The notes under the pieces were generated by a model, which saw only the letters and a program-made list of their open reading frames with translations, had not been told where the DNA came from and made no database searches. From Verrucomicrobiia bacterium (GTDB lineage Bacteria > Omnitrophota > Omnitrophia > Omnitrophales > Aquincolibacteriaceae), in assembly GCA_035495615.1 (NCBI GenBank), contig DATJFP010000065.1, forward strand, positions 1 through 53,979: a DNA stretch of 53,979 nucleotides, given 5' to 3'. The position numbers were made by a program, and so were the translations under genes. Of the stretch, positions 33,226-49,481 are shown piece by piece; positions within the stretch are counted from its first letter, which is position 1; each line of letters starts with the position of its first letter.

Positions 33226-33585
33226 ATGATTCGCCTTTTTATCTATCTGATCTTGCTGGGCAGCGTCTTGTATTTGCTTTCTGTATGGAGCCGGAGACAA
33301 ACCGAAGGCGCTCCCTCTGTCGGCGGAGTTTTGCCGGGCAAGCAGAAGAGCATGTTCAAGTCCCGCGCAAATCCGCGGGAAGTCTGGGTTCAAGTCTATG
33401 AAACCGCGACTCTCGATGAAGCGCGGCGTTATCAAGCCCGGATCCAGGAAGAAGAGATCGAATGCATTATCTATGAGCAGGGCAAAAAAGATATTCACGG
33501 CAACCCGCTCATGGGAATCGGCATCGCCGTTCCAAAAACAGCCGTGGGGCTTGCGCAGGGAATCATCAGCAGGATTTCAGTCTAA
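33226..33585 (+). CDS. DUF2007-like protein with N-terminal membrane helix
   Basis: A 119-aa protein. One hydrophobic N-terminal segment (LFIYLILLGSVLYLLSVW) is followed by a basic linker and then a small ferredoxin-like domain (VWVQVYETATLDEARRYQARIQEEEIECIIYE), resembling the DUF2007 'putative signal transducing protein' family. Function is unknown. It is the first gene after the rRNA terminator and is on the same strand as the three following genes, with 34 bp to the ACT gene. Confidence 0.65.
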   Translation: MIRLFIYLILLGSVLYLLSVWSRRQTEGAPSVGGVLPGKQKSMFKSRANPREVWVQVYETATLDEARRYQARIQEEEIECIIYEQGKKDIHGNPLMGIGIAVPKTAVGLAQGIISRISV

Positions 33586-33619
33586 GATTCTCTGCTGCCC
33601 TTGAGTCAAAGGAGCGATC

Positions 33620-34015
33620 ATGGGGGCGATTCAAAAACAGTTATCGGTTTTCCTTCCCAACCGGCCCGGTGTCCTCGCCCGCACCTGCTCCATCCTCTCT
33701 GAAACCGGAGTCAACATTCTTGCAATGGCCGTGCATGACACCGTGGACAACGCGGTGGTCCGCTTTCTCGTGGATCATCCCACCAAGGCGCTTCTGCTTT
33801 TCGAACAGGAAGAGCTTTACGTCCTCGAGCAGGAAGTTGTCGTCCTCGAACTTGATAATGCGCCCGGCGAACTGACGCGCATTTGCCAGGCCCTGGCCGA
33901 AGCGGACATCAACATTGCTTATGCCTACTGCACCGCGATCCCGAGGCAGGAATGCGGATGCCTTGTTCTCAAAACCGACCAGCCGGAAAGAACGCTCGAA
34001 ATTTTGTCGCGGTAA
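33620..34015 (+). CDS. Double ACT-domain protein
   Basis: A 131-aa protein with two ACT domains. The first (about 5-65) begins KQLSVFLPNRPGVLARTCSILSETGVNIL; the second (about 70-130) begins VVVLELDNAPGELTRICQALAEADINIAYAYC. ACT domains bind amino acids or similar ligands and regulate enzymes. This stand-alone tandem form is common, and its partner is not known. A ribosome-binding site (AAAGGAG) precedes the ATG. Confidence 0.85.
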   Translation: MGAIQKQLSVFLPNRPGVLARTCSILSETGVNILAMAVHDTVDNAVVRFLVDHPTKALLLFEQEELYVLEQEVVVLELDNAPGELTRICQALAEADINIAYAYCTAIPRQECGCLVLKTDQPERTLEILSR

Positions 34016-34040
34016 CCAACCTCATCACGGTTCCTCTCGA

Positions 34041-34805
34041 ATGAAAATCCTATCCTGGAACGTCAATGGAATCCGCGCGGCACAGCGCAAAGGTTTTTTG
34101 GAGTGGCTTTCCAAAGAATCACCCGACGTCTTGTGCGTCCAGGAAACCAAGGCGCAGCTGGACCAGCTGGATATTCTTCTCGCCACCCCGCCGGGTTATC
34201 ACACCGTTTGGAATTCCGCCGAAAAGAAAGGCTACAGCGGCGTCGCGACCTTTTCCAAAGAGAAGCCGCTGCGCGCCGACAAGGGCTACTGCGTTTCCCA
34301 TTTTGACTGTGAAGGCCGCGTTCTTCTGACCGAGTTCGAGCATTTCACGCTTCTCAATATTTATTTTCCCAACGGCCAGCGCGGCGAAGACCGGCTGAAG
34401 TTCAAGCTCGATTTTTACGAAGAGACGCTGCGTTTCGTGAAGAATCTGCGCAAGAAGGGAAAAGAAGTCATCGTCTCGGGAGATTACAACACCGCGCACA
34501 AGGAAATCGATCTTGCCCGGCCCAAAGAAAACGAGAAGACCTCCGGCTTCCTTCCCGTGGAGAGGCAGTGGATGGACGTTTGGGTTGACGCCGGCCACAT
34601 CGACGTTTTCCGCGAGTTCAATAAAGACGCCGGGCAATATACGTGGTGGGATCAGAAGTCTTTTGCCCGCGAGCGCAACGTAGGCTGGCGCATTGATTAT
34701 CATTTCGTGACCGAAGGGCTGATGCCCAAAGTCAAAAAAGCCGGCATCATGCCGGACGTTGTGGGCAGCGATCATTGTCCCGTCAGCCTCGAGCTGGAGC
34801 TCTGA
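34041..34805 (+). CDS. xth: Exodeoxyribonuclease III (AP endonuclease family)
   Basis: A 254-aa enzyme of the endonuclease/exonuclease/phosphatase fold that repairs abasic sites and 3' blocks. Motifs are present: N8-G in MKILSWNVNGIRAA, the metal ligand E in CVQETKAQ, the GDYNTAHKEIDLA strand with catalytic D and N, WRIDYHF, and the C-terminal GSDHCPVSLEL with catalytic D-H. The start is at ATG 34041, giving the family N-terminus; further upstream in-frame sequence overlaps the ACT gene. It may belong to the xth/exoA subgroup. Confidence 0.93.
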   Translation: MKILSWNVNGIRAAQRKGFLEWLSKESPDVLCVQETKAQLDQLDILLATPPGYHTVWNSAEKKGYSGVATFSKEKPLRADKGYCVSHFDCEGRVLLTEFEHFTLLNIYFPNGQRGEDRLKFKLDFYEETLRFVKNLRKKGKEVIVSGDYNTAHKEIDLARPKENEKTSGFLPVERQWMDVWVDAGHIDVFREFNKDAGQYTWWDQKSFARERNVGWRIDYHFVTEGLMPKVKKAGIMPDVVGSDHCPVSLELEL

Positions 34806-34807
34806 CC

Positions 34808-35251
34808 ATGGGTGAAATCCGGAAGCAATATTTTTTTAAGGCGTCCGTCTCGAAAGCGTGGGATGTCTGGACGAACGTCGAGAAGTATCCGGAATGGGTT
34901 GCCGGCGTTTCCCAAAGCCGGATCACGAGCGCTGTTCTCCAGGGCCCTGGATTTTCCTGGCAAGAGGACGCGGTGTTCGGGGTGACGCCGGTGCAGATGG
35001 ATCACCGCATCGAATCCTGGGAGCCGCTAAAAAAAGCCGTAGTGGAAACCTCGCTGCCGCTTGGCGGCAAGCTTCACCGTGAATTGGGATTCCAGGAAAC
35101 AGCCGAAGGCGCGGCCGTCGACATCCTGATGCGCTGGGACCTGGGGATCGCGGGCTCTTTTTTCGCGCCGGAATATGTCCACGACGTCATGGAAAAAAAT
35201 CTGGAGTTGACGGTTTCTAATTGGAAGCGGCGCGCTGAGGGCGGAGCCTAA
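34808..35251 (+). CDS. SRPBCC/START-fold protein
   Basis: A 147-aa protein with the helix-grip SRPBCC pattern: KQYFFKASVSKAWDVWTNVEKYPEWVAGV at the N-terminus, a run of beta strands, and a long C-terminal helix (DVMEKNLELTVSNWKRRAE). Members bind hydrophobic ligands in a cavity; the ligand is unknown. It starts 2 bp after the exodeoxyribonuclease gene. It ends within 4 bp of the end of the convergent 694-aa gene, with which it overlaps slightly. Confidence 0.75.
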   Translation: MGEIRKQYFFKASVSKAWDVWTNVEKYPEWVAGVSQSRITSAVLQGPGFSWQEDAVFGVTPVQMDHRIESWEPLKKAVVETSLPLGGKLHRELGFQETAEGAAVDILMRWDLGIAGSFFAPEYVHDVMEKNLELTVSNWKRRAEGGA

Positions 35252-37332
35252 GCTGCCGCGAGGAAAGACTCGAGGTTTTCAGCCTCGCCGAGGATGCTCC
35301 GTACCGACTGGAAAAATTCCGGATGGCGCACGAGTTCGCGCAGCGAGGGGTTGGACAGAAAGGCGCGGTACAGGAAAGAAACCGGCGACGAGTTCGGCAG
35401 CGCAAGGATTCTGTCGTCGATCCCTTCCGTGCCTTCGGGCACAATGGCCGCCACCAGATTTTGATTGAGCAGCTCCCGGAACTTTTCTTTGAATTCCGCC
35501 CCTGAGGAAACCTCCACCACGCTTTTCCCTTCGATGCGATGGACCCGGAATTTCCCACCGATGGCGTCCGTCGGAATGTCCGCCAGAGAACCGTAGACGA
35601 GCACAACCGAGGACGAACGCTCGGAGCGGACCGCCAGTTCCCAGAGTGTTTCGCCCGGGGGCTCTTTCAGCAGAGCATCCAGGTCCGCGGCCGTAATGAC
35701 AAGCAGGGTGCGCGCGGCACTTTCCCGCGTCTTTTGCAGCCAACCTTTCAAGGCCGTTTTCTTTTCTTCGGGCGTCATCTTTTCGTAATCCGCCCAAGCC
35801 ACTTGTTTCACCTGTGCGGCGGGTGCGGCCTCGGCCCCGCCGCCGTAGTTCATTGTCATGTCGACGGCTTTCAAAACATTGCGGTCGGTTTTGAGGTAAG
35901 CGACGCCGGCCGTGAAACCTTTGTCAAAAGACGGCGGGAAAAAACGGTTCTGGACTTCGGAAAGCGTCTGGCTCTTGACCGTCTCGGACATGCGCTTGTC
36001 GTAAAGCGCTTCATCCGGCGCCTGGCCGCCGAGCTCCGGTGTGATGACGACGTACGAGACGCCGGCTTTGCGCAGGCGCGCGGTAATTCCTTCGGTATGA
36101 AAACCGCCGGCCACCATCACGATGTTGCCTGAAAGCCGCGCGTCCGTTGTCACGGCCGAGAAAAAGCGTTCGTCGCGGGCCTTGGCGAGCGAATAATATT
36201 CGAGCGCAGTTTTCAATTCCCCGGAGAGGCCGGCCTCGGCCGTTTCCGCATCGATTGTATTCTTGTCTTGCTCATAATAGCCCAGGACATCGGGTGTGGC
36301 TTTGAGATCGAGGATGTTTTTGGCGACAAGGAACCGTTCCCATTTCTCCGCCAGGCTCCGTTCTTCGTCCTTGGCGAACAAGACATTCTGGACCCGCGCG
36401 ATCGCGTCGTCCAGCTGGGCAAAAAAATCTTTGTGTGAAATGCCGAGCTGCAGGTTCAGGAGTTCCAGGTAGCTCCGGCTGGCCGGGTAATGCTGAAGCT
36501 GTTCCTCGGGAATGATGCCGCTTTTCAGGAGCTCTTCAAAGCTGAGACGCTTCCTTTTATAGGAGTTCATGAGCCGTTCGGCCTCGGACTTCAGCTTTTC
36601 CTTGTCCAGGGCTTTTTCCATTTCCAGCGCCTTCTCGAAGAGTTTCACCTGAGTCAGGTCATCGAAAGAAAGACTGCGCTTACGCGCTTCGGCAACGACC
36701 ATCGGCAGAAAAACCTCCGCTTTCTTCCCTTCGCGGAACGCGGTCAATGCGTCGTCGAAACTTTTCAGCTCCGGATTAAACAAGGCGGCCTTGGCCTGGG
36801 TGAGCTTTTTTTGCGCGGCCCCGATTTTTTTCTGCATGGCTTCGCTGGCCTGGTGGTGCTCGAGATAGGCGGCGCGGTTTTTCTGATAAAGGTCTTCCTG
36901 CTCGATACCCACAAGCTTGAAGGGGGATTGGGAGAAGAGCGCGGCAAAGGCCGGGCCCGTGATGTCGCCGTCCTCGAGAAGCGCGCGGGCAAGCGTTTGT
37001 TTTTCCCGGGAATTGGGCAGCCCCCAGCTTTCCGGAAAACTTGTTTCCGACCAGCCGCCTTCCAGCGCCGCGGTGTTCAAGCCGTAAACCGCGTTCAGGT
37101 GATCCAGGATCGCGGCGATGTTTTCCTGGGCGGGAAGGTGCGCGTGCACGTCCTGGATCTCGATGACCCACCGCGATCCGGTTCCTTGAAATCGTTCTTC
37201 GATTTTTCCCAGGGATTTGGGGATCAGGAGACTGTCGAGCGAAAGCGGGGCCGCGGTCTCTTCGGTTTGGGCCGGCAAAGAGGAAGCACTCCAAAGAACG
37301 TATAAAAGCATGATGAGACAAACCCGTTTCAT
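35248..37332 (-). CDS. Exported 694-aa protein with IQDxH and GGFH motifs (ChaN/EreA-like)
   Basis: Not a named family that I can give with certainty. A signal peptide (MKRVCLIMLLYVLWSASSLPA) precedes a domain with WVIEIQDVHAHLPAQENI (D61, H63), E91 in AALEGG, a GIEQEDLYQKN segment, a long coiled-coil-like helical middle, and AGGFHTEGITARL (H412) ending in VSYVVITPEL. The same motifs occur in the giant protein at 38430. The DxH...E...GGFH order recalls the ChaN haem-binding and EreA/TIKI superfamily, which has GExH and GxGH in these places. The C-terminal 250 aa is separate and unrecognised. A TATACT -10 (37345-37340) lies 7 bases from the ATG, suggesting a leaderless mRNA. Confidence 0.75.
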   Translation of the reverse strand: MKRVCLIMLLYVLWSASSLPAQTEETAAPLSLDSLLIPKSLGKIEERFQGTGSRWVIEIQDVHAHLPAQENIAAILDHLNAVYGLNTAALEGGWSETSFPESWGLPNSREKQTLARALLEDGDITGPAFAALFSQSPFKLVGIEQEDLYQKNRAAYLEHHQASEAMQKKIGAAQKKLTQAKAALFNPELKSFDDALTAFREGKKAEVFLPMVVAEARKRSLSFDDLTQVKLFEKALEMEKALDKEKLKSEAERLMNSYKRKRLSFEELLKSGIIPEEQLQHYPASRSYLELLNLQLGISHKDFFAQLDDAIARVQNVLFAKDEERSLAEKWERFLVAKNILDLKATPDVLGYYEQDKNTIDAETAEAGLSGELKTALEYYSLAKARDERFFSAVTTDARLSGNIVMVAGGFHTEGITARLRKAGVSYVVITPELGGQAPDEALYDKRMSETVKSQTLSEVQNRFFPPSFDKGFTAGVAYLKTDRNVLKAVDMTMNYGGGAEAAPAAQVKQVAWADYEKMTPEEKKTALKGWLQKTRESAARTLLVITAADLDALLKEPPGETLWELAVRSERSSSVVLVYGSLADIPTDAIGGKFRVHRIEGKSVVEVSSGAEFKEKFRELLNQNLVAAIVPEGTEGIDDRILALPNSSPVSFLYRAFLSNPSLRELVRHPEFFQSVRSILGEAENLESFLAAA

Positions 37333-37390
37333 GACTTGAAGTATACTCAAGCGCAAGGGGTTCCCACAAGGGTTCGTAAGCCCGTTTGGC

Positions 37391-37419
37391 TTGCCGGAAG
37401 GCGGCTCTTCCTGTATATT
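37391..37419 (+). promoter_or_regulatory. Promoter of mqnD-like gene, probably leaderless
   Basis: -35 TTGCCG (37391-37396), 17-bp spacer, -10 TATATT (37414-37419). The ATG follows 6 bases later, so the mRNA probably begins at the start codon. This 93-bp region also holds the divergent promoter of the 694-aa gene. Confidence 0.65.
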
Positions 37420-37425
37420 GCACCC

Positions 37426-38274
37426 ATGCCAGCCACCCAGCAGCAGACCATCCGTTTCGGCCACAGCCCTGATCCTGACGACGCGTTCATGTTCTATGCC
37501 TTTGCCAAAAACAAGATTCCCATGGACGGGTTCCAGGTCGATCACGTCATCGAGGATATCGAGAGCCTGAACCAGCGCGCGCTCAAGGCGGAGCTGGAAG
37601 TGACGGCCGTATCCTGCCATGCCTATGCCTACCTGGCGGACAAATACGCGGTCATGCGTTCCGGCGGCAGCATCGGCGATAAATACGGGCCCATCGTCGT
37701 GGCCCCAAAAGGGACTTTTCCCGGCCAGCCTTTGAGAGGGAAGAGGATCGCCATTCCCGGCAAGCTGACGACGGCCTTTCTCGTGCTGCAGCTCTATGAA
37801 AAAAATATCGTCCCGGTCTTTGTTCCTTTTGACCAGATTTTTGATGCGGTCCGCGAAGGCAAAGCCGATATGGGGCTCATCATCCACGAAGGGCAGCTTA
37901 CCTATAAAGATGAGGGCTTCGAAAAGAGAGTGGACTTGGGCGAATGGTGGCATCAGACCACAGGGCTTCCTCTTCCGCTGGGAGTGGACATTATCCGCAG
38001 GGACCTCGGCGCGGACATCATGCAAAGGTTCGCGCGCCTTTTCAAAAAAAGCATCCAATATTCTCTCGATAACCGAGCGCCGGCGCTCGAGTACGCGATT
38101 CAATACGGCCGCGGACTCGCGGAAGATCTTAACGACCAGTTCGTCGGCATGTACGTCAACGACGCCACAGTGGACATGGGCGACAAAGGCCTTCGCGGTT
38201 TCCAGACTCTCCTCGATCAAGGGTACGAACAACGCCTGATTCCTCACCGCATCAAGATCGACCTCGTTGGATAG
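37426..38274 (+). CDS. mqnD: MqnD-like protein (1,4-dihydroxy-6-naphthoate synthase family)
   Basis: A 282-aa periplasmic-binding-protein-like enzyme of the MqnA/MqnD family in the futalosine route to menaquinone. The N-terminal FGHSPDPDDAFMFYAF is the MqnD hallmark, and VSCHAYAYL, GKRIAIPGKLTTAFL and GLIIHEGQLTY are further family segments. MqnD converts the cyclic de-hypoxanthinyl-futalosine product to 1,4-dihydroxy-6-naphthoate. No other mqn gene is in the window, so MqnA or another paralogue cannot be fully excluded. Lack of a Shine-Dalgarno and the abutting promoter point to leaderless translation. Confidence 0.85.
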   Translation: MPATQQQTIRFGHSPDPDDAFMFYAFAKNKIPMDGFQVDHVIEDIESLNQRALKAELEVTAVSCHAYAYLADKYAVMRSGGSIGDKYGPIVVAPKGTFPGQPLRGKRIAIPGKLTTAFLVLQLYEKNIVPVFVPFDQIFDAVREGKADMGLIIHEGQLTYKDEGFEKRVDLGEWWHQTTGLPLPLGVDIIRRDLGADIMQRFARLFKKSIQYSLDNRAPALEYAIQYGRGLAEDLNDQFVGMYVNDATVDMGDKGLRGFQTLLDQGYEQRLIPHRIKIDLVG

Positions 38275-38319
38275 CCCTGCCCTGCGGCTTAAAAAACTTA
38301 AAAATTTTTAATCTCCCCC

Positions 38320-38347
38320 TTGACGCCCCGAAAAAAAATGTTACACT
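38320..38347 (+). promoter_or_regulatory. Candidate promoter of the giant gene
   Basis: -35 TTGACG (38320-38325), 16-bp spacer, -10 TACACT (38342-38347), about 85 bp before the ATG at 38430. Confidence 0.6.
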
Positions 38348-38367
38348 TGCTTTTGCCGATTGTTGCC

Positions 38368-38395
38368 ACAGGTTTATAAAGCTTTATAAACCTGT
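38368..38395. promoter_or_regulatory. Perfect 28-bp palindrome in the giant-gene leader
   Basis: The sequence centred on TTTATAAAGCTTTATAAA is a perfect inverted repeat of 14 bp per arm with no loop. It lies about 20 bp after the -10 box and 35 bp before the start codon. It could be an operator for a dimeric regulator, or act as a hairpin in the mRNA leader. Confidence 0.7.
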
Positions 38396-38429
38396 TTAAC
38401 CCGTAAGGGGGGAGAAAGCGAGATGTCGC

Positions 38430-41400
38430 ATGCGCTACCCCTTATGGAAGAAGCTCACCGCCGTTCCCGTCCTTTTCACCTTCATTTTCTCCAGCATTGT
38501 TTGGGCTGCTCCCGCAGAATTTAATCTCGCAGGGCCGGTCCATGCCTCCGTCCAGGACGGCGTACTGCTGCCGTCTCTTGCGCAGACGCTCGACATCCCG
38601 GCGACGTATGGCGATATCAAGGAACGCTTTCTCGCGGAATCGTCGCGGCCGCAAACCGCATCCGGAATGATCATTCATATCCAGGACGCCCACGCCAATC
38701 TCGAAGCCCAGCAAAACATTCTGCAAATCATCCGCCACGTCACGGCGCATCATGGCGTGGGCCTCATCTTTGTAGAAGGCGCGATTGACCGTCTCGACGC
38801 GGATCGCCTGCGTTATTTCAAAGAGGAATCCTGGAACCAGGAAATGGCGGGCCTGCTCGCCAAGGAAGGCGTGCTGGGAGGGGCCGAGCTTTTTCTTCTC
38901 GAGAACACGGCGTCGAAAAAAGGAACGGTCGCAGGCTACGGCGTCGAGCGGGCCGATCTCTACGTAAAAAATCTGCAGGCCTACCGCGCCGTTTACGCGG
39001 AAAAAGAATTCACGGACAAGGCCATGGAGCGCATGAAGTCCGAGATCCTGACGCAGAGCTCCAAGGTTTTCAACAAAGAGCTCAAGGCGTTTTTCAGAGA
39101 ATGGCTTTTTTATCAGGATGTTCCCAGTGAACTCATGCGCCATATGAATGTTCTCAGCCAGGATGCTCTCAAGTACCTTAGCCTGGACCTGAACGATGCC
39201 CGTCAGCAGGCGGATTGGCCCCAGCTCGTCCGGTTTTCCAAATTCAAAACCCTGGAAGCGGAAACCGACGCAGCGGCCGCGCTCGCGGAGCGTGACCTGT
39301 TGGCAGATTGGGCCGCCCAACATGGGGTGCCCGAAAAATACACCGCTGAATTGCGGAATTGGAAGCCGGGCCAGGCCCTGGAAGGCGGGACGTTCAGCGA
39401 TCTGAGAATGTTCCTGGAAGCCTTTCATGACGCGGCCGCACCTAAGGGATTTTCTTTCAAGGATTACCCGCGGCTTGCGAAGGCCATGGGCGCGTCGGTT
39501 CTCAGAAGCGAGATCCGCGCCGAGGAATTGATGGAGGAGATCAAGAAGCTGAGCGATTCCATCCTGGACAAGCTTGCGCGGACGCCCGAAGAAGGTGCCT
39601 TGATCGCCCGGTACAAGGATTATCTCCTGCTCGAAAAACTTTTTTCTCTCGAACTCGTCGATGAAGAATACGAAACGCTGCAAACCCGCCGCGAAACGGT
39701 GAAGGCGGCGCTCGCCCGGCCGGAAGAAAATGAAAAGGCCGCGGCGGACGAGACTTCCCACCGCGCTTACGAACCGCGCGTTCCTTCGCTTGCGCAGCTT
39801 TTTGACCAGGCCATGGCGTTTTACAAGCTCGCGCAGCAGCGCGAAGAAGTGATTTATGGGAACATGATCCGCAAGATGAGGGAGACCGGTAAGACAAACG
39901 CCATCTTAATCACGGGCGGATTTCACGCGCGCGGCCTGCACAAAATTTTCGAGAACCAGGGCCTTTCTTACGTCGAAGTGACGCCCGCCATTTCCGAGAT
40001 CACCGAAAATAAAAACTATTCCGACATCATGCTTATGAAGGGCGATCCGTTCACCCGGCGTTCTTACGTCAACACGCCGCGCATGGCGGACACCGGCCTT
40101 GGAACGAACCTTCCGGACTACGCTCTTAGCCTGCAGCAGAATCACGTGCTGCCGGTTTTGGGCACGGTCGTAGCACGGCACGTTGCTCAAGGGACAGAGC
40201 TGGGCAAAATCCTCAAGTCACTCGGCCGCTCTCATGCGCTCGCGGGCCAGGGCCTGGCCATCGCCGATAATGGACTCGTTTTACTTAACGGAAAGCCGCT
40301 CCAGATCAACGGACGGACCGCGGTCCTGACCGCTCAAGGATTGAAATCGGAAGAGGGACGCGCCGAACTGCGCGCTTCCGAATTTCCGAGAAGTGTCGCG
40401 CTCAACGTGCAGTATCTGGAAGAAAGACGGCTTCTCAACGGCGCGCCGGCGGACGAAGATCATGTCGTCATGCCGGAACCTCAGTATCAGCCGGCTTTGG
40501 TGGGCGCGGCGAATCCGGGCGCTCCGGTACAGAGCGGCACGACGGTTGTGGGCTATCAGCATTCGATTTATCTTCCGGGCACGGAAAGTTTTTTGCCCGG
40601 CGGCATTGCCACGGGACAAAGCCGCACGTACGGCACCGCGCCTACCGGTCCGGTTTCTTCCGGGGCTTCGGTCATGCCGATGTCGAGCCCCTCGGGAAGC
40701 ATTGCTTCTCCGGACGGTAAAAAATCCATCGCATTGGAAGGCTCTTCTCTCGTCGTCCAGGACCTGCAGGATGCGAGCAAGACGATCCGTTATGACGCGC
40801 CGTTTCTTCTCAAAGTCAGCGGCATCCAGTCCTACGCCTTCAGCAGCGACAACAACTGGATCGTGATCGCGGACGGGCAGCGCATGGTCTATGCGTTTCA
40901 TCTGAACAACCCCAATCTTCTCAACTCGCCCCAAGGTTCGGTGCGCGGATTCCAGATTCCGGGATTGGATCCCGCGTTTCTTTCGGGCATGCAGCGGAAT
41001 CCGGAAGGTTACAACGTAAAGATCCTCGGCCGCTCTCTCGACCACCCGAACATTTTTAATGCGGAACTGATCAACGGCGAAACCTACCAGCTCTACCTCG
41101 ACGACCATGAATTCCGCCAGGAATCCGGACCTGTCGTGACGCTGGCGCGGGAAAACGTCCCCGGCGCGCAGATCACGGCGCTTCCCGACACCTACACGGT
41201 CAGGGCCTTCAACGGCTCCACGATCACGAGCCGCACGGACCACGGCGTCACGTTTCATTACGATACCACGCATCAAAGCGCCACAGGCATCGGCATTACC
41301 TTCGATCAGCCCGCGGATCTGAGCCAGATGGGATTTTTGAAAATCGGAATCGAAGGCGTGGCTTCGCAGATCATGCTCACGATCAGGACCTACGACGCAC

Positions 41401-44400
41401 AGACGGGCGGCACCATCGGCGCCCTGTATCTGGCCGACGTCCAAAACATTCCCGGAAAAGGCGCGGTCGTGGATTTGTCGAAACTCGCCAGCCAGGGGCG
41501 CGGCGTGGACCTGCGGCACGTGGGCGAAATCAATTTTACGCTGGGCATTGCCCACGCCGGCGGCGGCGAAATCCCGGCCACAGGAGAGGTGACGATCAAT
41601 TTCGCTCCTTTTTCCCAAGCCACGCTCGCGGACGTGAACCTTCTCAGCCCGCAGCAGTCGGTGCTGACGGACATCGGTTTGATCGACAGCGGTGATGCGC
41701 CGCACACAACACGCGTCCCCGGAGACAAAGTGCGCGTGCCCGTGAAAGGCCCGGCCTTTGATTTCGGGGGCTTCACGTACGGCTTTCCTCTGAGCCGCGC
41801 GGAGATCGAGCGCCGCGGCAATCTCGTCTTCACGCTGGAAGCCGAAGGCGAGACCGGCAATCTTTTCATGGAATTTCAGAGTTCGGACCGTAAAGTGGTG
41901 AGAGTCGCGGTGGCGCTGACGCTGGCCGACGGCCGTAAAGTCTTTTCGATTTCGGCGCAGCAGCTCGCGTCGCTTCCGGATCTCAATTACGTGCAGGTGG
42001 TGGCGGAATCTAAAAACAGCGTTCCGCTGAACGGCGCGGTCACGATCGGGCTGCGTCCCGAAGGCCTTGAAATCTTCGGGCCATCGGCGTTGACGGCCCA
42101 GGACCTCACGGATTTTCAGTTTACCGGACAGGTTGTGTCGCTCGGAAACTCGGAAGACAGCCGGACCACGTTTAATCTTGCCGCGAAAACGGTCAGCGTG
42201 CATGTGAACACCGGCCCTGCCGGAGCGCTGAATGGATTTGCCGGCGGAGGCGCCACGTCGCTGCGCCCGCAGGTGGTGGGCGACCAGGTCGTGCTCGCGA
42301 TCGCTTCGACCGCGGGAACGGTCCTCGATGTCGAGTTCAACGATTTCAGCACGGGGCAGCAGCGGAGCGTGAAATTCGAAGTCCAGGGCGTGGAAACCGG
42401 CCTGACGGTTTATGCTTTTCCGCGCGCGGCTTTTACCCGCGCCGGAATCCAGCCGGAAAACGTCTCGAACGTGATCGCCATTGCCTCGGTCAATCATGCC
42501 GGGCCCCAGGAAGGCGACATCATGATGAAGCTGGCCCCGCTTTCCGTCCCCGCGGGATGGACGGCCGCGGCCTCGAACGGCAACTACGCGTTTCATCTTG
42601 AATCCAACCGCCTGCCCAGCGGCGTTACGGAAGAAAAACTTTCTTTGATGGACCTGAGAACGGGCGCGGTTCAAATCCTCGCGCAAGCGCAGACGCCTTC
42701 CGGCGGAAGGATCGGAAGCGTTTACGACGTTTCTCCGGAATCGTTCCCGGGTTTCCCGGTCGTGGTTTACGAAACCGGAGGCCCGCGCACGGACAGCGGC
42801 CATTTTTTCACGGTGCACGTGCAGCGCATCGACAATGCCGCGCAGTATCAGGAAACCTACAGCCGGGTTCAGCAGGCGGAGCCCGTGCTTCAATCCGTCC
42901 GGTTTGAAAATAATATCGTAACGCTGACGACGCGGAACCGTTTTCCCAGCGGCACCGTGACTCAGGATCTCGACGCATTTGAAGTTGGCGCTGGCTCCAT
43001 TCTCCGGAGCGGCCGTCCGCTTACGACGATTCTGACCGCGGGCACGGGCCTTCTCGTCGACCAGGACACGCCTATCGTGCTTCAGCCCGAGCACCTCGGC
43101 TCTGAAAGCGGCCGGTTGTTCCAGGTTTACGTCTATGATGCCAGCCAGGGGCAGGTGAACATGCCCACCAAACGTGTGCTCGGCCTCGGCGGGGATTCGA
43201 GCGGCGCTTATACGCTTCTCGATGGCTACACGACTCCCTCAGGAAAACAGATCATTTCCATTGGCGTCGACGGCAGCACCGCCAACCGCAGCGTGATCGA
43301 AGAACAAACGACCTTCAAGGTCCTGAATCTCCCGGGCGCCGTCATCTCGGTCCAATATAATGGAAACCTGGGAACGTACCGCGTCCGGAATAATGACGGG
43401 ACGGAGCAGACCGTGGCCGTGAATTTCGACACCATGACGATTGTCCCGACCTTCGCGGACGTGAACCTCTTGACGCCACAGGAGTCGGTGCTGACCGGCA
43501 TCGGCCTCATCGACAGCGGGGACCGGCCGAACACCACGCGTGTGCCCGGAGACAAAGTGCGCGTGCCGGTGCGCGGCAATACTTTTGATTTCGGCGGGTT
43601 CACTTACGTCCAGCCTCTCAGCCGCGCGGAAATCGACCGGCGGGGAAATCTCGTGTTTACCCTGGAAGCCGAAGGCGAGATCGGCAACGTCTTCGTGGAA
43701 TTCCAGAGCTCCGACCGCAAGGTCGTGAAAATTCCGGTGACGATCGCGCCCGCGGACGGACGCAAGGTATTTACGGTGTCCGCGCAGCAGCTCGCCGCGC
43801 TTCCGAATCTCAATTACGTGCAAGTGGTGGCGGAATCCAAGGGCGCCGCGCTGAACGGCGCGGTCACGATCGGCCTGCGCCCCGAAGGCCTGGAAATTTT
43901 TGGACCTTCCGCGGCGCTGGCGACGCGCGATGTGACGGATTTTCGTTTCACGGGCCAGACCGTCTCGCTCGGCACGAGCGAAGACAGCCGCATTGTTTCA
44001 ATCGACACCACCGGGAAAGCGGTGACCGTGCATGTGGATACGGGCTCCGCGGGAACGCTGAGCGGTTTTGCCGGCGGTGGCGCGACCGCGCTTCGTCCCC
44101 AAGTGGTGGGCGATCAAGTCGTGCTTGCGCTTTCGTCCACGGCCGGAACCATCTTGGACATCGAGTTCAATGATTTCACCTCAGGCCTGCAGCGGAGCGT
44201 GAAATTCGAAGTGCAAAGCGTGGGAACCGGCCTGACGGTTTATGCTTTTCCGCGCGCGGCGTTTACCCGCGCGGGCATTCAGCCGGAAAACGTCTCGAAC
44301 GTGATTGCCATCGCGTCCGTGAATCATCCGGGACCTCAGTCGGGCGACATCAGCCTCCGGCTTGCGCCCGTGGAAAATCCTTCGGTCATCGTGGATCGCG

Positions 44401-47400
44401 AGATCATCATTGCCGGCAACACCGTGACGGGCACGAACCTGTCCACGGTGCTCGCGCAATCCGGCCTCGACCAGAAAGGCGTGACGCCGGCCAGCCTGAA
44501 TTTTCCGGCGGGCCTCGAAAACGCGCACTATTACGCGGCGCTCATCCACACGTCCGAAGGCGACAAGTATTTTGTCGCCTACAGCGGGCAGATCAATCAC
44601 TATGAAACGCGGACTTCGTACACGACCGGTTACGGCGACCACGGTGTGCCCATTTCCATCCCGTATACTTACAGCGCGCTGGTCTCGGTCAATCCCGTGG
44701 GAGGCCTTTATTACGTGCGCCCGGGGCATGAGACTTTGCGCAAGGACGTGGGGCCTCTGGGCAGCATCGGTTTTAATCCCGGCGCGGAGCTCATCGTGCA
44801 GCGCCAGTACGCGAGCAATTTCGTGGCGGATTCCATCCGCCCCGACGGCACGTTTGCCGCGAGCGTGCGGGAAGTGGTGGTGGCGGACAGAACGCTTTCG
44901 AATCCCGAGTTTTTTTATGCGACGCGGTACCAGGGCGGCGCTGCGCCGTACGTTTATGACGTTTACCGCAAGGACGGCACGCTCGTCGCGACGTTCACGA
45001 AAACCATGAACCTCGGTCCGTCTTCGGTCAATGCTGTGGGCGTTCCAGACGTGTCGCCGGACAGCCACTATCTGATCCTGGGCCAGCAAAGCCGTTCGCT
45101 TTACACGGGCCATGACACGAAACGCTTGTATGTCCTTGTCTATGACGCGCAGACCGGCCGGCAGCTGCCGGGATTCACGATCCAGGACGTGGACAATCAG
45201 GCGCTGACGATTCCCTCGGACATCCGTTTTATGCCCGGATCCAGCCGTTACGTGCGCGTGCTTTATCCGACCGGGCAGGCGGATTTCTATGACGTGACCA
45301 GCGGTCAGAAGGTGAATGTGCGTTCCAGCGTGCTGGCGCCGGGGCTGATCAATTATTTCCCGCCGGAAGGCACGGCGTTCCAGATCGACGCGCGGAACGG
45401 ACAGTTCCACCTCCTCGAGCTTCCGGCCATCATCTCGGTCAATACCAACGTGGTCGGCACTTCGTTTGTCCGCCTCGTGAACACGGCGCACGGCGAGCTT
45501 CAGATTTATCACAACAGCCAGCGCTCCAACGACAGCCTTGTCGTTTTCAATGCCCGCACCGGTTACGTGCAGGTGGATTCCGCCCAGGGCTTTCCTTTCG
45601 TGGGAGAAGGCGAAGAAGCGGCCGTGGCGTTCAGCCCGAGCGGCAATCAGATCGCGATCGCCGGCGGCGTCAACCGCGTGTACTTTATTCCTTACAAAGA
45701 ATTCGCGCAGACCGGCACGGTGGATCTCGTCAATCTGCCGCTGAATTCCCAGACCGGCCGGACGCAGCGCGCGGTTAAAATCACGTTCGAATCCGAAACC
45801 GTGGCGATCGTCGAAACCAAAGCCACGATCACGACGCCGCAGGGAGTCGTCACCGGAGAAATGCCGGGAGACAAATTCAAGATCGACCTCGGCACGCATC
45901 CTGCCACGGTCACCCGGATTTCCGGGCTGCCGGCCGGCTACACGCTGGCGCCTTCGAACGCCAACTTCGCGTTCCGCACCGACGTGCTGAACGGCTATCT
46001 GCTGCGCCTGTTTTTGCTGGACGTGCGCACGGGCCAGGAGCAGCAGCTCGCGACCGCGTCCATCGAATCCTACGGCGACCAGGTTTTCAAAGTTCACGAC
46101 GTTTCGCCGCAGGGCGACTTCGCGGCCTTCGGCATCGCGGGCTCGAATGCACGCGTGCAGAAAATCAGCAATGCCGCGCAGGGGATTTCAGTGCCGATCA
46201 CCTACGGCCTCAACACGATTACTTGGACCACGCTTCCGGGCGGCGACCGCGCCGTGGTTCTGGCTAGCCCGAACCCTGCGATCAACAAGACCGTGAATCT
46301 CCGGACGCTTCAAGTTGAGCCGACGCTTCCAGCAGGCTACAGGCTTGCCGCATCAAACCCTAATTATGCGTTTGCCGTGAAGCTCGATGCGACGCAGCTG
46401 AACGCGAATCTCTACCTCATCGACGTGCGCAATCCTACAAATGAGATCCTGGTCGGCGGCGGAAGCCGCGTGCGCCACAGCCCGGGGAAGTACGACATTT
46501 CGCCCGACGGCAGCGTCGTGGTCGCGGCTTTCTATGAAGCCGGCCCGATTCTCGGCCAGCTTTCACAGGTGAACTTTTACCGGCGCTCCGATCTCGAAGC
46601 GGGCAACCGCACGCCGGTTAAAACCATTGGACCGGCCGCGGCCAATTCCATCCGTTTCGAGCCGGGTTTCGCGGTTGTGGAAGCCACGGTGAGGACGGCG
46701 TCCTATCCGAACGAGCCGGCGACGGAATCGAAGACCTTCCGCGTTTCGCTTTCGGATTTCCTCCCGGCGGTCCCGGCGGGATTCACGGTGACGCCGTCGA
46801 ATCCTGCTTACGCGTTCCACGAAGTGCGTGCGGGCGAAACCATTCAGAGGCCCGGAAGCAATGTCCAGCGCATTGTCCTCTTGAACCGGCTGACGTCCGA
46901 GCAAAGTGAGCTTACGGTCGTCGATCATCCGGAACACGTGGACGTAAGCCCGGACGGAAGATTCGCGATCGTATCTTCGTACATTCCGCAGGGCGCGCAG
47001 ACGGCCTTTATAAGGAAGCAGTCCACGATTTTCGTCCGCGATTTGAACGCGAAGACGAACCGGAACATCGATCTTCCGGATGCGAAGCCGGTTCTGGACG
47101 CGCGCTTTTTGCCGGGCTCCAGCAGCTTGATCCGAGTCGTTTACAAAAACGGCGAGGCCGAGCTTTACGACGCGGCCTCGGGGCAGAAAGTCACGCTTCG
47201 GAAAGACGTGCTCGCTCCCGGCCTGGTCAATTATTTTCCGCCGAACCAGGGCAAGGCCTTTCAAGTGGACACCCGCCAGGGGCAGGCCGAGCTCATCGAG
47301 CTTCCTCCCGTGATCGCGGTCCGCACGAACGTGGCCGGAACTTCTTTCGTGGGCCTCGTGCAAACCGCGCATGGAGAACTGCAGGTTTACAATTACGACG

Positions 47401-49481
47401 AACGTTCGAATACGCATGTCGTTGTTTTCAATGCCAGGACGGGTTACGTGCAGCAGGACTATGCCCAGGGCTTCGGCAGCGATTCGCCGGTGGTTTTCAG
47501 CCCGAGCGGCAATCAAATCGTGACCGCCAACAGCATCAACCGCGTTTACCTGATTCCTTACCGGGAATTCGCGCAGACCGGGAGGACGGAAGTGATCAAT
47601 CTCCCGCTGAGCACGAAAACCGGACACCTGCAAAGGGCGGTCGGGTTCACGTTCCAGTCGGAAAAAATAATCGTCGCCTCGACTAGGGCCACGGTCGCCA
47701 CGCCGCAGGGCATTGTGACCGGCGAGATTCCGGGCGACACGTTCAAGATCGATTTGAACACGCGCCCGGCTACTGTGACGATCATGCGTCATGCGCCTCC
47801 GACGCCCGTGACACCGCGGCCGCAGCCCGGACCCGTGCAAGGCCCTGTGCAGCAAGGGCCCAAGACTCCCGTGAAGGCGGAAAAGCCGCGGGAGCAAAAG
47901 CCGGGCGTGAGCCCCTTGTTTTTCCTGCCGCCGAATGCGCTCAATGCCATGACCGCGCCGCACGTGGACGTGAATCCCGTGGTGCTCAACGCGCTTTTCG
48001 GAAATGGTAATCCCACTCTGCCCGCGCAGGCGCTCCCTGTTCCGCAGAAGCAGCCGCTTTCCCCTTACGGTTATTTCGGAGGAGGGGGCGACCTCATTCC
48101 CGACCAGATCATCGAAGGCAATACGCCGCTCGGGCGCGTGCGTATCGAGTATTTCGCGCGTGAAACCCGGGAAGGCCTGCTGCACACCTTCCGTATCACG
48201 GTGACGGACGCGGAAGGCCGGACAACCCAGCTCCAGATCCAAATCCGCACGCCGCAGGGCACGGCGCCGTTCCGGAAGCTGGAAATCCGCGGCACCAAGG
48301 TTTTGGGAGACGGGGAAGAAATCCTCGATTTCGAAAAGAGGCTCAAAGAAAAGGCGGAGAACGAAAGACGAATCGATGAATTGTTCGCCGATCACGACGA
48401 ACTTTCGGATCTCGGCCTGGCGGTCGTGCTGTCCGGCGTTTATCTGGGCGGGACTTCGCCGGTAGCGCCCACCAAAAAAGTGACGCGCATTGTTCCGCCG
48501 CGGAAGTCGGAGCTTCGCATCAGTGCTCCCGCGGCCGTTTCCGAGGACGTGCTGACGCGTTATTTTGCCCGGTATCCGAATACGCTGGACGCCGTCGCGG
48601 AAACCGCGCACGTCGCGGCCGACACAATCGGCTATGCGCATCGCGTGGATGATATAGTTTTCCGCGCGCTGCTGGACAAGATCGTTCCTGCTGTGGCGAA
48701 AGTCGCGCAGATCGATGTGGCCAGCTTCCGTTCGGAAATCGACTCGAGCATTGCTGCCACACAGAAGCTGCTGGCCAACGGCACGCTTGTCCTGGAAGGC
48801 GCGGGCTCGGTAATTCTGACGACGTCAGGCGCGCTGCAGGACCGCAAGCCCTTGCTGCTCGCGGCCATCCCGTTCATGGTGGCGCTTGCCAAGCAGGACA
48901 AAACCGGAACGTACGCGCAGTCGTTCAAGCTCGTGGGCGAAAATGCCCGCGCGTTGAAAGACGCGGTGTACGCGGCGAGTAACAATCTCACTCCCGAAGA
49001 AAAGAACCTGGTGGGCAAGATCGTGGATTTCGCGACGCAGCCGAATACTTCCTTGTCGGATGTGGTCGGCGAGTACATCCACCAGGAAGAAAAGAGCAAC
49101 CGCTCCGTCGCCGTATCGCTGAAAAGCGAAGAAGCGTCGCAGCTTTCCAAGGTGCTCGCAAATATCCTCAAGACGATAGAAAACGCCCAGGAAATGAAAG
49201 TCAGCGGCAACCCGCAGGCCCTCGTCAAGACCGCGGAGGCTTATGTGACGCGCGCGCTGCTGCTCCTCGACCTGGCGTCGAAGCTCAAGATGAGCGCCGA
49301 GCTTTTGAAACAGCAGCCGGACCAGATCGCGGTTTTGATCCGCGAATATTTCGCGCAGAAATTGCCGGACATCCACGTGGACGTGGCAAACGACGGTTCT
49401 TTCGATCTGCCGCTGAATGCCGTGGCCGCGCAGCTCGCGATCTTCAAGGCCGCGCAACGGAAGGTGGATGCCGCCGCATAA
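38430..49481 (+). CDS. Giant secreted protein, 3,683 aa
   Basis: Not recognised as a whole. A signal peptide (LTAVPVLFTFIFSSIVWA, cleavage near A26/A27) precedes an IQDxH domain: IIHIQDAHANLEAQQNI (D86, H88), E116 in FVEGAID, and GGFHARG (496-502), paralogous to the 694-aa protein. Next come a linker (about 690-770) and beta-rich blocks with propeller-like SPDGK/SPSGN strands, including two large duplications. A Pro-rich linker (about 3125-3165) leads into a final, mainly helical domain (about 3370-3683). No transmembrane or anchor segment is visible at the C-terminus. A perfect terminator lies about 120 bp after the stop. Function is unknown; an outer-surface or periplasmic role is inferred. 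Confidence 0.85.
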   Translation: MRYPLWKKLTAVPVLFTFIFSSIVWAAPAEFNLAGPVHASVQDGVLLPSLAQTLDIPATYGDIKERFLAESSRPQTASGMIIHIQDAHANLEAQQNILQIIRHVTAHHGVGLIFVEGAIDRLDADRLRYFKEESWNQEMAGLLAKEGVLGGAELFLLENTASKKGTVAGYGVERADLYVKNLQAYRAVYAEKEFTDKAMERMKSEILTQSSKVFNKELKAFFREWLFYQDVPSELMRHMNVLSQDALKYLSLDLNDARQQADWPQLVRFSKFKTLEAETDAAAALAERDLLADWAAQHGVPEKYTAELRNWKPGQALEGGTFSDLRMFLEAFHDAAAPKGFSFKDYPRLAKAMGASVLRSEIRAEELMEEIKKLSDSILDKLARTPEEGALIARYKDYLLLEKLFSLELVDEEYETLQTRRETVKAALARPEENEKAAADETSHRAYEPRVPSLAQLFDQAMAFYKLAQQREEVIYGNMIRKMRETGKTNAILITGGFHARGLHKIFENQGLSYVEVTPAISEITENKNYSDIMLMKGDPFTRRSYVNTPRMADTGLGTNLPDYALSLQQNHVLPVLGTVVARHVAQGTELGKILKSLGRSHALAGQGLAIADNGLVLLNGKPLQINGRTAVLTAQGLKSEEGRAELRASEFPRSVALNVQYLEERRLLNGAPADEDHVVMPEPQYQPALVGAANPGAPVQSGTTVVGYQHSIYLPGTESFLPGGIATGQSRTYGTAPTGPVSSGASVMPMSSPSGSIASPDGKKSIALEGSSLVVQDLQDASKTIRYDAPFLLKVSGIQSYAFSSDNNWIVIADGQRMVYAFHLNNPNLLNSPQGSVRGFQIPGLDPAFLSGMQRNPEGYNVKILGRSLDHPNIFNAELINGETYQLYLDDHEFRQESGPVVTLARENVPGAQITALPDTYTVRAFNGSTITSRTDHGVTFHYDTTHQSATGIGITFDQPADLSQMGFLKIGIEGVASQIMLTIRTYDAQTGGTIGALYLADVQNIPGKGAVVDLSKLASQGRGVDLRHVGEINFTLGIAHAGGGEIPATGEVTINFAPFSQATLADVNLLSPQQSVLTDIGLIDSGDAPHTTRVPGDKVRVPVKGPAFDFGGFTYGFPLSRAEIERRGNLVFTLEAEGETGNLFMEFQSSDRKVVRVAVALTLADGRKVFSISAQQLASLPDLNYVQVVAESKNSVPLNGAVTIGLRPEGLEIFGPSALTAQDLTDFQFTGQVVSLGNSEDSRTTFNLAAKTVSVHVNTGPAGALNGFAGGGATSLRPQVVGDQVVLAIASTAGTVLDVEFNDFSTGQQRSVKFEVQGVETGLTVYAFPRAAFTRAGIQPENVSNVIAIASVNHAGPQEGDIMMKLAPLSVPAGWTAAASNGNYAFHLESNRLPSGVTEEKLSLMDLRTGAVQILAQAQTPSGGRIGSVYDVSPESFPGFPVVVYETGGPRTDSGHFFTVHVQRIDNAAQYQETYSRVQQAEPVLQSVRFENNIVTLTTRNRFPSGTVTQDLDAFEVGAGSILRSGRPLTTILTAGTGLLVDQDTPIVLQPEHLGSESGRLFQVYVYDASQGQVNMPTKRVLGLGGDSSGAYTLLDGYTTPSGKQIISIGVDGSTANRSVIEEQTTFKVLNLPGAVISVQYNGNLGTYRVRNNDGTEQTVAVNFDTMTIVPTFADVNLLTPQESVLTGIGLIDSGDRPNTTRVPGDKVRVPVRGNTFDFGGFTYVQPLSRAEIDRRGNLVFTLEAEGEIGNVFVEFQSSDRKVVKIPVTIAPADGRKVFTVSAQQLAALPNLNYVQVVAESKGAALNGAVTIGLRPEGLEIFGPSAALATRDVTDFRFTGQTVSLGTSEDSRIVSIDTTGKAVTVHVDTGSAGTLSGFAGGGATALRPQVVGDQVVLALSSTAGTILDIEFNDFTSGLQRSVKFEVQSVGTGLTVYAFPRAAFTRAGIQPENVSNVIAIASVNHPGPQSGDISLRLAPVENPSVIVDREIIIAGNTVTGTNLSTVLAQSGLDQKGVTPASLNFPAGLENAHYYAALIHTSEGDKYFVAYSGQINHYETRTSYTTGYGDHGVPISIPYTYSALVSVNPVGGLYYVRPGHETLRKDVGPLGSIGFNPGAELIVQRQYASNFVADSIRPDGTFAASVREVVVADRTLSNPEFFYATRYQGGAAPYVYDVYRKDGTLVATFTKTMNLGPSSVNAVGVPDVSPDSHYLILGQQSRSLYTGHDTKRLYVLVYDAQTGRQLPGFTIQDVDNQALTIPSDIRFMPGSSRYVRVLYPTGQADFYDVTSGQKVNVRSSVLAPGLINYFPPEGTAFQIDARNGQFHLLELPAIISVNTNVVGTSFVRLVNTAHGELQIYHNSQRSNDSLVVFNARTGYVQVDSAQGFPFVGEGEEAAVAFSPSGNQIAIAGGVNRVYFIPYKEFAQTGTVDLVNLPLNSQTGRTQRAVKITFESETVAIVETKATITTPQGVVTGEMPGDKFKIDLGTHPATVTRISGLPAGYTLAPSNANFAFRTDVLNGYLLRLFLLDVRTGQEQQLATASIESYGDQVFKVHDVSPQGDFAAFGIAGSNARVQKISNAAQGISVPITYGLNTITWTTLPGGDRAVVLASPNPAINKTVNLRTLQVEPTLPAGYRLAASNPNYAFAVKLDATQLNANLYLIDVRNPTNEILVGGGSRVRHSPGKYDISPDGSVVVAAFYEAGPILGQLSQVNFYRRSDLEAGNRTPVKTIGPAAANSIRFEPGFAVVEATVRTASYPNEPATESKTFRVSLSDFLPAVPAGFTVTPSNPAYAFHEVRAGETIQRPGSNVQRIVLLNRLTSEQSELTVVDHPEHVDVSPDGRFAIVSSYIPQGAQTAFIRKQSTIFVRDLNAKTNRNIDLPDAKPVLDARFLPGSSSLIRVVYKNGEAELYDAASGQKVTLRKDVLAPGLVNYFPPNQGKAFQVDTRQGQAELIELPPVIAVRTNVAGTSFVGLVQTAHGELQVYNYDERSNTHVVVFNARTGYVQQDYAQGFGSDSPVVFSPSGNQIVTANSINRVYLIPYREFAQTGRTEVINLPLSTKTGHLQRAVGFTFQSEKIIVASTRATVATPQGIVTGEIPGDTFKIDLNTRPATVTIMRHAPPTPVTPRPQPGPVQGPVQQGPKTPVKAEKPREQKPGVSPLFFLPPNALNAMTAPHVDVNPVVLNALFGNGNPTLPAQALPVPQKQPLSPYGYFGGGGDLIPDQIIEGNTPLGRVRIEYFARETREGLLHTFRITVTDAEGRTTQLQIQIRTPQGTAPFRKLEIRGTKVLGDGEEILDFEKRLKEKAENERRIDELFADHDELSDLGLAVVLSGVYLGGTSPVAPTKKVTRIVPPRKSELRISAPAAVSEDVLTRYFARYPNTLDAVAETAHVAADTIGYAHRVDDIVFRALLDKIVPAVAKVAQIDVASFRSEIDSSIAATQKLLANGTLVLEGAGSVILTTSGALQDRKPLLLAAIPFMVALAKQDKTGTYAQSFKLVGENARALKDAVYAASNNLTPEEKNLVGKIVDFATQPNTSLSDVVGEYIHQEEKSNRSVAVSLKSEEASQLSKVLANILKTIENAQEMKVSGNPQALVKTAEAYVTRALLLLDLASKLKMSAELLKQQPDQIAVLIREYFAQKLPDIHVDVANDGSFDLPLNAVAAQLAIFKAAQRKVDAAA
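41628..42521 (+). repeat. Giant protein, internal repeat A, copy 1 (aa 1067-1364)
   Basis: 298 residues beginning ADVNLLSPQQSVLTDIGLID and ending GPQEGDI are repeated almost unchanged at aa 1676-1974. Shared runs include RVPGDKVRVPV, RRGNLVFTLEAEGE, GLRPEGLEIFGPSA and VYAFPRAAFTRAGIQPENVS. The content is mostly beta strand. Confidence 0.9.
43455..44351 (+). repeat. Giant protein, internal repeat A, copy 2 (aa 1676-1974)
   Basis: Second copy of the 298-residue block, with one extra residue; it differs from copy 1 mainly by conservative changes. Codon use has drifted more than the protein, so the duplication is not very recent or selection has kept the protein constant. Confidence 0.9.
45222..45920 (+). 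repeat. Giant protein, internal repeat B, copy 1 (aa 2265-2497)
   Basis: About 230 residues from IRFMPGSSRYVRVLY, including VLAPGLINYFPP, VFNARTGYVQ, FSPSGNQIAIAGG and TTPQGVVTGEMPGD, recur at aa 2891-3119. SPSG-type strands suggest a beta-propeller or similar. Confidence 0.85.
47100..47786 (+). repeat. Giant protein, internal repeat B, copy 2 (aa 2891-3119)
   Basis: Second copy of block B (ARFLPGSSSLIRVVYKNG, VLAPGLVNYFPP, VFNARTGYVQ, FSPSGNQIV, TPQGIVTGEIPGD). It is more diverged than repeat A and leads into the Pro-rich linker. Confidence 0.85.

Follow-up and report, generated by a model that had tools for sequence, protein, structure and literature searches.

The two paralogous proteins encoded in the window (the whole stretch of 53,979 nucleotides analysed here) begin with a domain that is the common head of the giant, predicted exported proteins of the phylum Omnitrophota, and that is very probably a TIKI-like member of the TIKI/EreA/ChaN fold superfamily. 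The best reading of the combined data is that this TIKI-like head matures or guards an exported body to which it is fused or which is encoded by a neighbouring gene. In a more specific form, to which we give a probability of roughly 40%, the head would act as a hydrolase outside the cytoplasm, maturing or releasing its own body.

The paralogues of the window and their family

The first-pass annotation had described two secreted paralogues on opposite strands, with IQDxH and GGFH motifs, around a menaquinone biosynthesis (mqn) gene. The features of the locus are the following:

35248–37332, − strand: 694-aa protein, with predicted signal peptide, TIKI-like head (aa 30–460) and short -FLAAA tail
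37147–37158, − strand: I59-Q60-D61-V62 of IQDVH in the 694-aa protein
37144–37146, − strand: H63 of the 694-aa protein
37060–37062, − strand: E91 of the 694-aa protein, 28 residues past H63
36097–36108, − strand: GGFH of the 694-aa protein, residues 409–412
37426–38274, + strand: mqn (PF02621), an ordinary gene between the two and outside the system (Pfam, neighbourhood comparison)
38430–49481, + strand: giant of 3683 aa, with predicted signal peptide, TIKI-like head, β-rich repetitive body of 3.1 kaa and -AAA C-terminus
38430–38510, + strand: signal-peptide-like N-terminus of the giant, about aa 1–27 (...SSIVWAA/PA; sequence, hydropathy rule)
38562–40064, + strand: TIKI-like head of the giant, aa 45–545 (A1 profile match; AlphaFold)
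38682–38693, + strand: IQDxH motif of the giant, Q85–H88 (H88 invariant)
38775–38777, + strand: E116 of the giant, invariant, 28 residues past H88 (member alignment)
38946–38948, + strand: E173 of the giant, E or D in every member (member alignment)
39840–39842, + strand: R471 of the giant, invariant, 28 residues ahead of H499 (member alignment)
39915–39926, + strand: GGFH of the giant, aa 496–499 (G496, G497 and H499 invariant; member alignment)
49470–49478, + strand: -AAA C-terminal tail of the giant (Ala ends in 17/17 complete paralogues)

The motifs lie where they had been placed, both in the 694-aa protein (IQDVHAH with D61/H63, E91, GGFH at 409–412 and SYVVITPEL) and in the giant (IQDAHAN with D86/H88, E116, GGFH at 496–499 and SYVEVTPAIS). 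BLASTP aligned the two proteins with E=1e-14 in the N-terminal segment and 8e-8 in the GGFH segment, so their likeness is not due to chance and the claimed paralogy holds. Both have signal-peptide-like N-termini by a simple hydropathy rule, in keeping with the proposed secretion (as predicted export), and the gene between the opposite-strand pair is indeed a menaquinone biosynthesis gene (PF02621, E=1.5e-72). Pfam and NCBIfam scans of both proteins gave no match worth naming.

The notion of a pair arranged around mqn did not hold up, and the shared domain is instead the common head of the giant exported proteins of the phylum. In genome G012, an orthologue of the 694-aa protein (48% identical) and a head-bearing giant are direct, divergent neighbours, and mqn was rejected as a functional partner because it is absent from this equivalent locus. 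Between the G012 locus (L236, G012:C62:1–5200) and window positions 33226–38430, a small gene of 119/128 aa, an ACT-domain gene, the 694-aa orthologue and the divergent headed giant are conserved, while mqn and an exonuclease-III-like gene are extras in the window.

Used as a query, the N-terminal 497 aa of the giant found dozens of matches in its own genome and matches in all 39 relatives, with up to 55 per genome. With a profile of the head (A1, built from 51 rows), 173 of the 384 Omnitrophota genomes sampled gave a match, among them every one of the 47 that belong to the same order. No relatives were found in the plasmid and viral collections searched, and a low-sensitivity scan of genome contigs matched one Omnitrophota locus; the head is likely confined to Omnitrophota. 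The stretches around the own-genome matches hold 28 family genes of 604–23,964 codons (stop-to-stop frames, several of them clipped at contig ends), amounting to 116,814 codons, free of masked bases, or 11.1% of the 3.16-Mb assembly. The head is a single N-terminal copy in 28/28 of these genes, right after a stretch that the hydropathy rule reads as signal-peptide-like in every one of them. The 23,964-codon headed frame (G000:C88:18416–90307, − strand) has no Cys in head or body and directly adjoins another headed giant of 4,414 codons; a 24,209-codon frame in G028 was discarded as an artefact of masked bases.

Predicted fold and putative active site of the head

The AlphaFold model of the giant's head has a mean pLDDT of 86, with core blocks mostly at 93–98, and the model of the 694-aa protein has a confident head and a poor C-terminal third (overall pLDDT 75). 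As modelled, the head is a parallel β-sheet core flanked by helices in strand-α-strand order (strands 80–86, 112–115, 168–172, 490–496 and 513–519 of the giant), with the putative functional residues at strand ends as in the TIKI superfamily. H88, E116, E173 and GGFH each lie just past successive strands, and the two models agree in that the invariant residues cap successive β-strands at their C-terminal ends. A helical insert of about 300 aa is predicted between the third and fourth strands.

The motif pattern had been likened to ChaN/EreA/TIKI folds. Foldseek searches of the PDB gave no match at E<=0.001 for either model (best E 0.18), but superfamily entries ranked high: 3b55, 2rad, EreC, HopBA1 and ChaN ranked within the first 42 of 350,542 chains with the giant head, and the same superfamily entries fell within the top 15 for the 694-aa model, with 3b55 at rank 1. 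The entries ranked high with the two models were 3b55, 2rad, 6xcs, 5t09 and 2g5g; the remaining top matches were mainly coiled-coil and helical entries. At sequence level, a ChaN HMM (PF04187, Cofac_haem_bdg) gave weak matches at the GGFH end, and 20 of the 21 loci with a sub-threshold match in the relatives are members of the head family. However, the curated cut-off was exceeded in 0/39 relatives, head members scanned singly reached a best E of 0.005, and the head measures 500 aa, against about 215 for ChaN. Expansion of true ChaN into a profile was unsuccessful. A true ChaN-type protein was seen at L117 (G059:C28), where GGASH corresponds to GGFH and an in-frame TAG stop splits the two motif halves.

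The erythromycin esterase family PF05139 (EreC 6xcs, BcR135 3b55/2rad), which supplied the rank 1 Foldseek match of the 694-aa model, shares the 28-residue spacing and the register of GExxH...E with IQDAH...E. It differs in that no head member passed its curated Pfam cut-off, that GE is replaced by Q[DN] in most members, and that insert and context are other ones. The one true EreA found in 193 genomes (L119) is not a head. Alignment of head and EreA profiles with hhalign put IQDAH...E in register with GExTH...E at a score of 30.6 (probability 5.8), compared with 19.2 for a reversed control and a maximum of 24.1 over 40 block-shuffles, and PDB sequence searches with the protein and with the profile returned chance matches only. 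The proposed resemblance is thus carried by AlphaFold/Foldseek, the ChaN HMM and the residue spacing, although each fold or profile match is individually non-significant.

The spacing and conservation of the site residues are strict. His-to-Glu spacing is 28 in 109/115 members, and the same count was obtained for EreA L119, with 29 for the ChaN-type L117; published values are 28 for both RRSP (H3902–E3930) and Bcr135 (H85–E113) (PMC6254334). The late His sits in a G-rich turn and is preceded in most members by a conserved Arg 28 residues ahead, the corresponding Arg-to-His distance in RRSP being 29 (R4001–H4030), where E3900, H3902, E3930 and H4030 plus R4001 are essential (PMC6254334). H88 and E116 are present in 113/113 distinct members, and R471, G496, G497 and H499 in 111/111 of those in which these positions are present. 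Position 173 is E in 104 and D in 9, two own-genome paralogues being among the members with D.

The first acid is the exception. The first-pass annotation had the first Gly-Glu changed to Gln-Asp, and Q[DN] is indeed found in most members, but D61/D86 is not invariant: position 86 is D in 92, N in 11, T in 4, E in 3 and S in 3 of the 113 distinct members. The first Glu of ExH, part of the 2His/2Glu set of active TIKI peptidases, is accordingly not a conserved feature of the head, which we therefore file as a divergent family of the superfamily and not as a TIKI peptidase; with mostly Asp, and also Asn, Thr or Ser, at this position, a TIKI-type mechanism is not assured. The suggestion of a new subfamily is fair. 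The head has no Pfam model.

This variable acid would also suit a head without catalytic activity, namely a module for folding, export or assembly that might dock other giants or the -AA tail, and in which the H/E/R/H residues bind a ligand or have a structural role. Superfamily members without the catalytic set exist, for example PMT (PMC6254334), and the head is always N-terminal, right behind the signal peptide, in proteins that vary in the middle but are constrained at both ends. Of the complete own-genome members, 17/17 have Ala as their last residue (14 of them end in [SA]A), compared with 4/23 background ORFs, as do 27/34 giants of the relatives. We nevertheless regard a non-catalytic head as unlikely, as the unbroken retention of H88/E116 (113/113) and R471/G496/G497/H499 (111/111) at the catalytic positions and spacings of the superfamily looks like a site in use.

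The proposal of a periplasmic haem- or metal-dependent enzyme, or of a ChaN-type haem carrier, has in its favour that ChaN belongs to the same superfamily and that the GGFH end was picked up with the ChaN HMM; a metal could also be held by the two His together with the two acids. No sign of haem or metal, and no ChaN-like haem evidence, emerged from the analyses, however; the superfamily peptidase RRSP is metal-independent (PMC6254334), and at the loci examined the family keeps company with giant bodies and metabolic enzymes and shows no link to iron uptake genes. Haem or metal dependence is therefore unsupported, and we consider it highly improbable.

Bodies, embedded enzymes and split pairs

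The bodies behind the head range from tens to >20,000 aa, mostly without TM-like segments and in many cases with internal repeats. They are almost purged of cysteine: the bodies of the 28 own-genome proteins contain 9 Cys in 102,066 residues (0.009%). The corresponding share in 26 other ORFs is 0.85%, and catalytic residues make up most of the few Cys left in the bodies. The giant of the window has 0 Cys in head and body and no recognisable enzyme in its body. Two β-rich repeats of ~75% identity lie about 600 aa apart in this body (aa ~1070–1400 and ~1675–2000), which also has propeller-like segments without a Pfam match. Together, the signal-peptide-like N-termini and the Cys depletion suggest that the headed proteins are exported. 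Both further giants read to their end also finish in Ala, and the -Ala tail is mostly missing from stand-alone heads. The -[SA]A tail of complete headed giants could be a signal for a tail-specific protease or for docking.

Enzymes of cytosolic type are embedded in these proteins, and several bodies carry enzymes of central metabolism. Pfam identified GNAT, methyltransferases, glutamate dehydrogenase, parts of PTS enzyme I and 4-alpha-glucanotransferase in the bodies, as well as pseudouridine synthase, ARMT1, acyl-CoA dehydrogenase with all three domains, a beta-CASP nuclease-like unit and M23. One giant (G000:C49:7314–32657, L169+L170) combines PGK (1e-88), GAPDH (4e-52), GPI, TIM (6e-49) and FBPase; it has two GAPDH-C units, and its sole two Cys past the signal peptide lie in the GAPDH motif SCTTNC. 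A giant in G024 joins the head to PGK, aldolases, GPI, FBPase, PGM and TIM, and another in G025 contains TIM, PGK, GAPDH, aldolase and GPI, its N-terminus running off the contig so that the head is out of view. Ordinary PGK, TIM and GAPDH genes are also present in most relatives, which usually makes the giant copies additional ones. In G025 (79% complete), PGK, TIM and GAPDH were found only embedded in giants, which may reflect an assembly gap or a real loss.

The enzyme-containing bodies might also be captured, decaying genes that serve as non-enzymatic filler behind an old head. The modules are extremely divergent, the embedded branches of a PGK tree, which points to no clear source of the embedded enzymes, measuring 3.8–10 changes per site, and some are damaged, as in an HPr match without its His region and a TIM that has lost E97. 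Where checked, however, catalytic residues survive: SCTTNC and the His of GAPDH, Lys/His/Glu of TIM, His and Cys of PPDK, and the metal motifs of M23 and beta-CASP. A PPDK body retains one Cys in 1876 aa, that of the catalytic CGE, and 7 of the 8 Cys outside the signal peptides of three GAPDH-containing giants sit in SCTTN-type GAPDH motifs. Against this retention, decay into filler appears quite unlikely.

Tentatively, Omnitrophota may instead possess, outside the cytoplasm, a second set of metabolic enzymes, for central carbon and other pathways, in the form of giant multi-enzyme chains purged of Cys, each of which would be chaperoned or cut by its own TIKI-like head. Such an arrangement would have GPI, aldolase, TIM, GAPDH, PGK, FBPase and PGM on one chain, and PPDK, FBPase and PGK as split partners, and its site might be the periplasm, a compartment bounded by a membrane, or the interior of prey.

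In other classes the head occurs in split form, as stand-alone genes of 518–610 codons. At six of eight informative loci (L227, L229, L230, L231, L232 and L233) the stand-alone head is directly followed downstream, on its own strand, by a gene whose product bears a signal peptide, and the other two (L228 and L234) have no body gene beside it. The bodies scanned at five of the paired loci contain PPDK, FBPase (8e-94), PGK, and SIS with glutamine-synthetase or amidotransferase parts. That one lineage has head and body fused and another has them side by side argues that they work jointly. The stand-alone heads upstream of enzyme bodies look like an ancestral or split form.

These pairs also bear on the possibility that the hydrolase is aimed outwards, at prey or host envelopes, peptides or esters, in which case each giant would display it for attack or feeding, with the body as a stalk or a carrier of more enzymes. 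The signal peptides and the soluble, Cys-poor bodies suggest a surface or extracellular location, the superfamily includes secreted or injected hydrolases such as RRSP, HopBA1 and EreA, and predation or adhesion has been proposed for Omnitrophota giants (PMC10066038). Service to the body nevertheless agrees better than attack on varied prey with one copy per giant, an essentially unchanged site and the pairing of split heads with exported metabolic enzymes, and the scanned bodies have no Pfam toxin or pore domain, one M23 peptidase being the only wall-lytic match. An outward-aimed hydrolase thus seems rather unlikely.

Proposed role and relation to known systems

Retention of the site in all own-genome paralogues despite unrelated bodies is expected if each head is used, and in combination with the split pairing it favours maturation over an outward weapon or an inert module. 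According to this maturation model, the signal peptide would carry head and body out of the cytoplasm, where the H88/E116/H499/R471 site would hydrolyse its substrate, most likely as a peptidase- or amidase-type enzyme. The head may act on the attached body (in cis) or on a neighbour-encoded body (in trans), and the exported body with its enzyme modules would thereby be matured, trimmed or released. No cleavage-site pattern was found in the giants, and an interaction between head and tail is only an idea.

The TIKI superfamily comprises Tiki, TraB, RRSP, PMT and HopBA1 (Sanchez-Pulido and Ponting 2013, as cited in PMC6254334). The head shares with it the parallel β-sheet core flanked by helices, the 28-residue distance from His to Glu, and a late His with an Arg about 28 residues before it. 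It is set apart by D/N/T/E/S in place of the first Glu of ExH, by the extra near-invariant acid E173, by the helical insert, and by its position at the N-terminus of giant exported proteins. MARTX toxins with an RRSP effector likewise place a TIKI-type endopeptidase in a very large secreted protein, but RRSP is one internal, delivered effector, whereas the head is the constant N-terminus of dozens of proteins per genome.

Very long, predicted extracellular ORFs are already known from Omnitrophota (Seymour et al. 2023, PMC10066038), including a 39,678-aa protein in Velamenicoccus archaeovorus, and were characterised there by poor conservation, a small number of annotated domains and a possible role in adhesion or predation. 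To that description the present work adds the shared head, the C-terminal tail, the Cys purge and the metabolic-enzyme modules. Our literature search found no account of a common head or of metabolic modules; West-Roberts et al. 2023, a giant-gene preprint cited in PMC12057145, may have priority. The giant ORFs themselves are thus not new, and the novelty lies in headed, Cys-purged, predicted exported enzyme arrays. The head family was previously unnamed and, taken alone, is a new family of a known superfamily.

The shared head offers a handle on the function of the Omnitrophota giants, which are among the longest known proteins. With a catalytic-looking head, a common tail and the Cys purge, these proteins gain a shared anatomy, a profile to search with and biochemistry that can be tested, and the head's superfamily contains resistance enzymes, peptidases and effectors. 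If true, an exported glycolysis on a string would be a new way for bacteria to organise or export metabolism, and would change the view of how the host-associated, possibly predatory cells of the Omnitrophota live.
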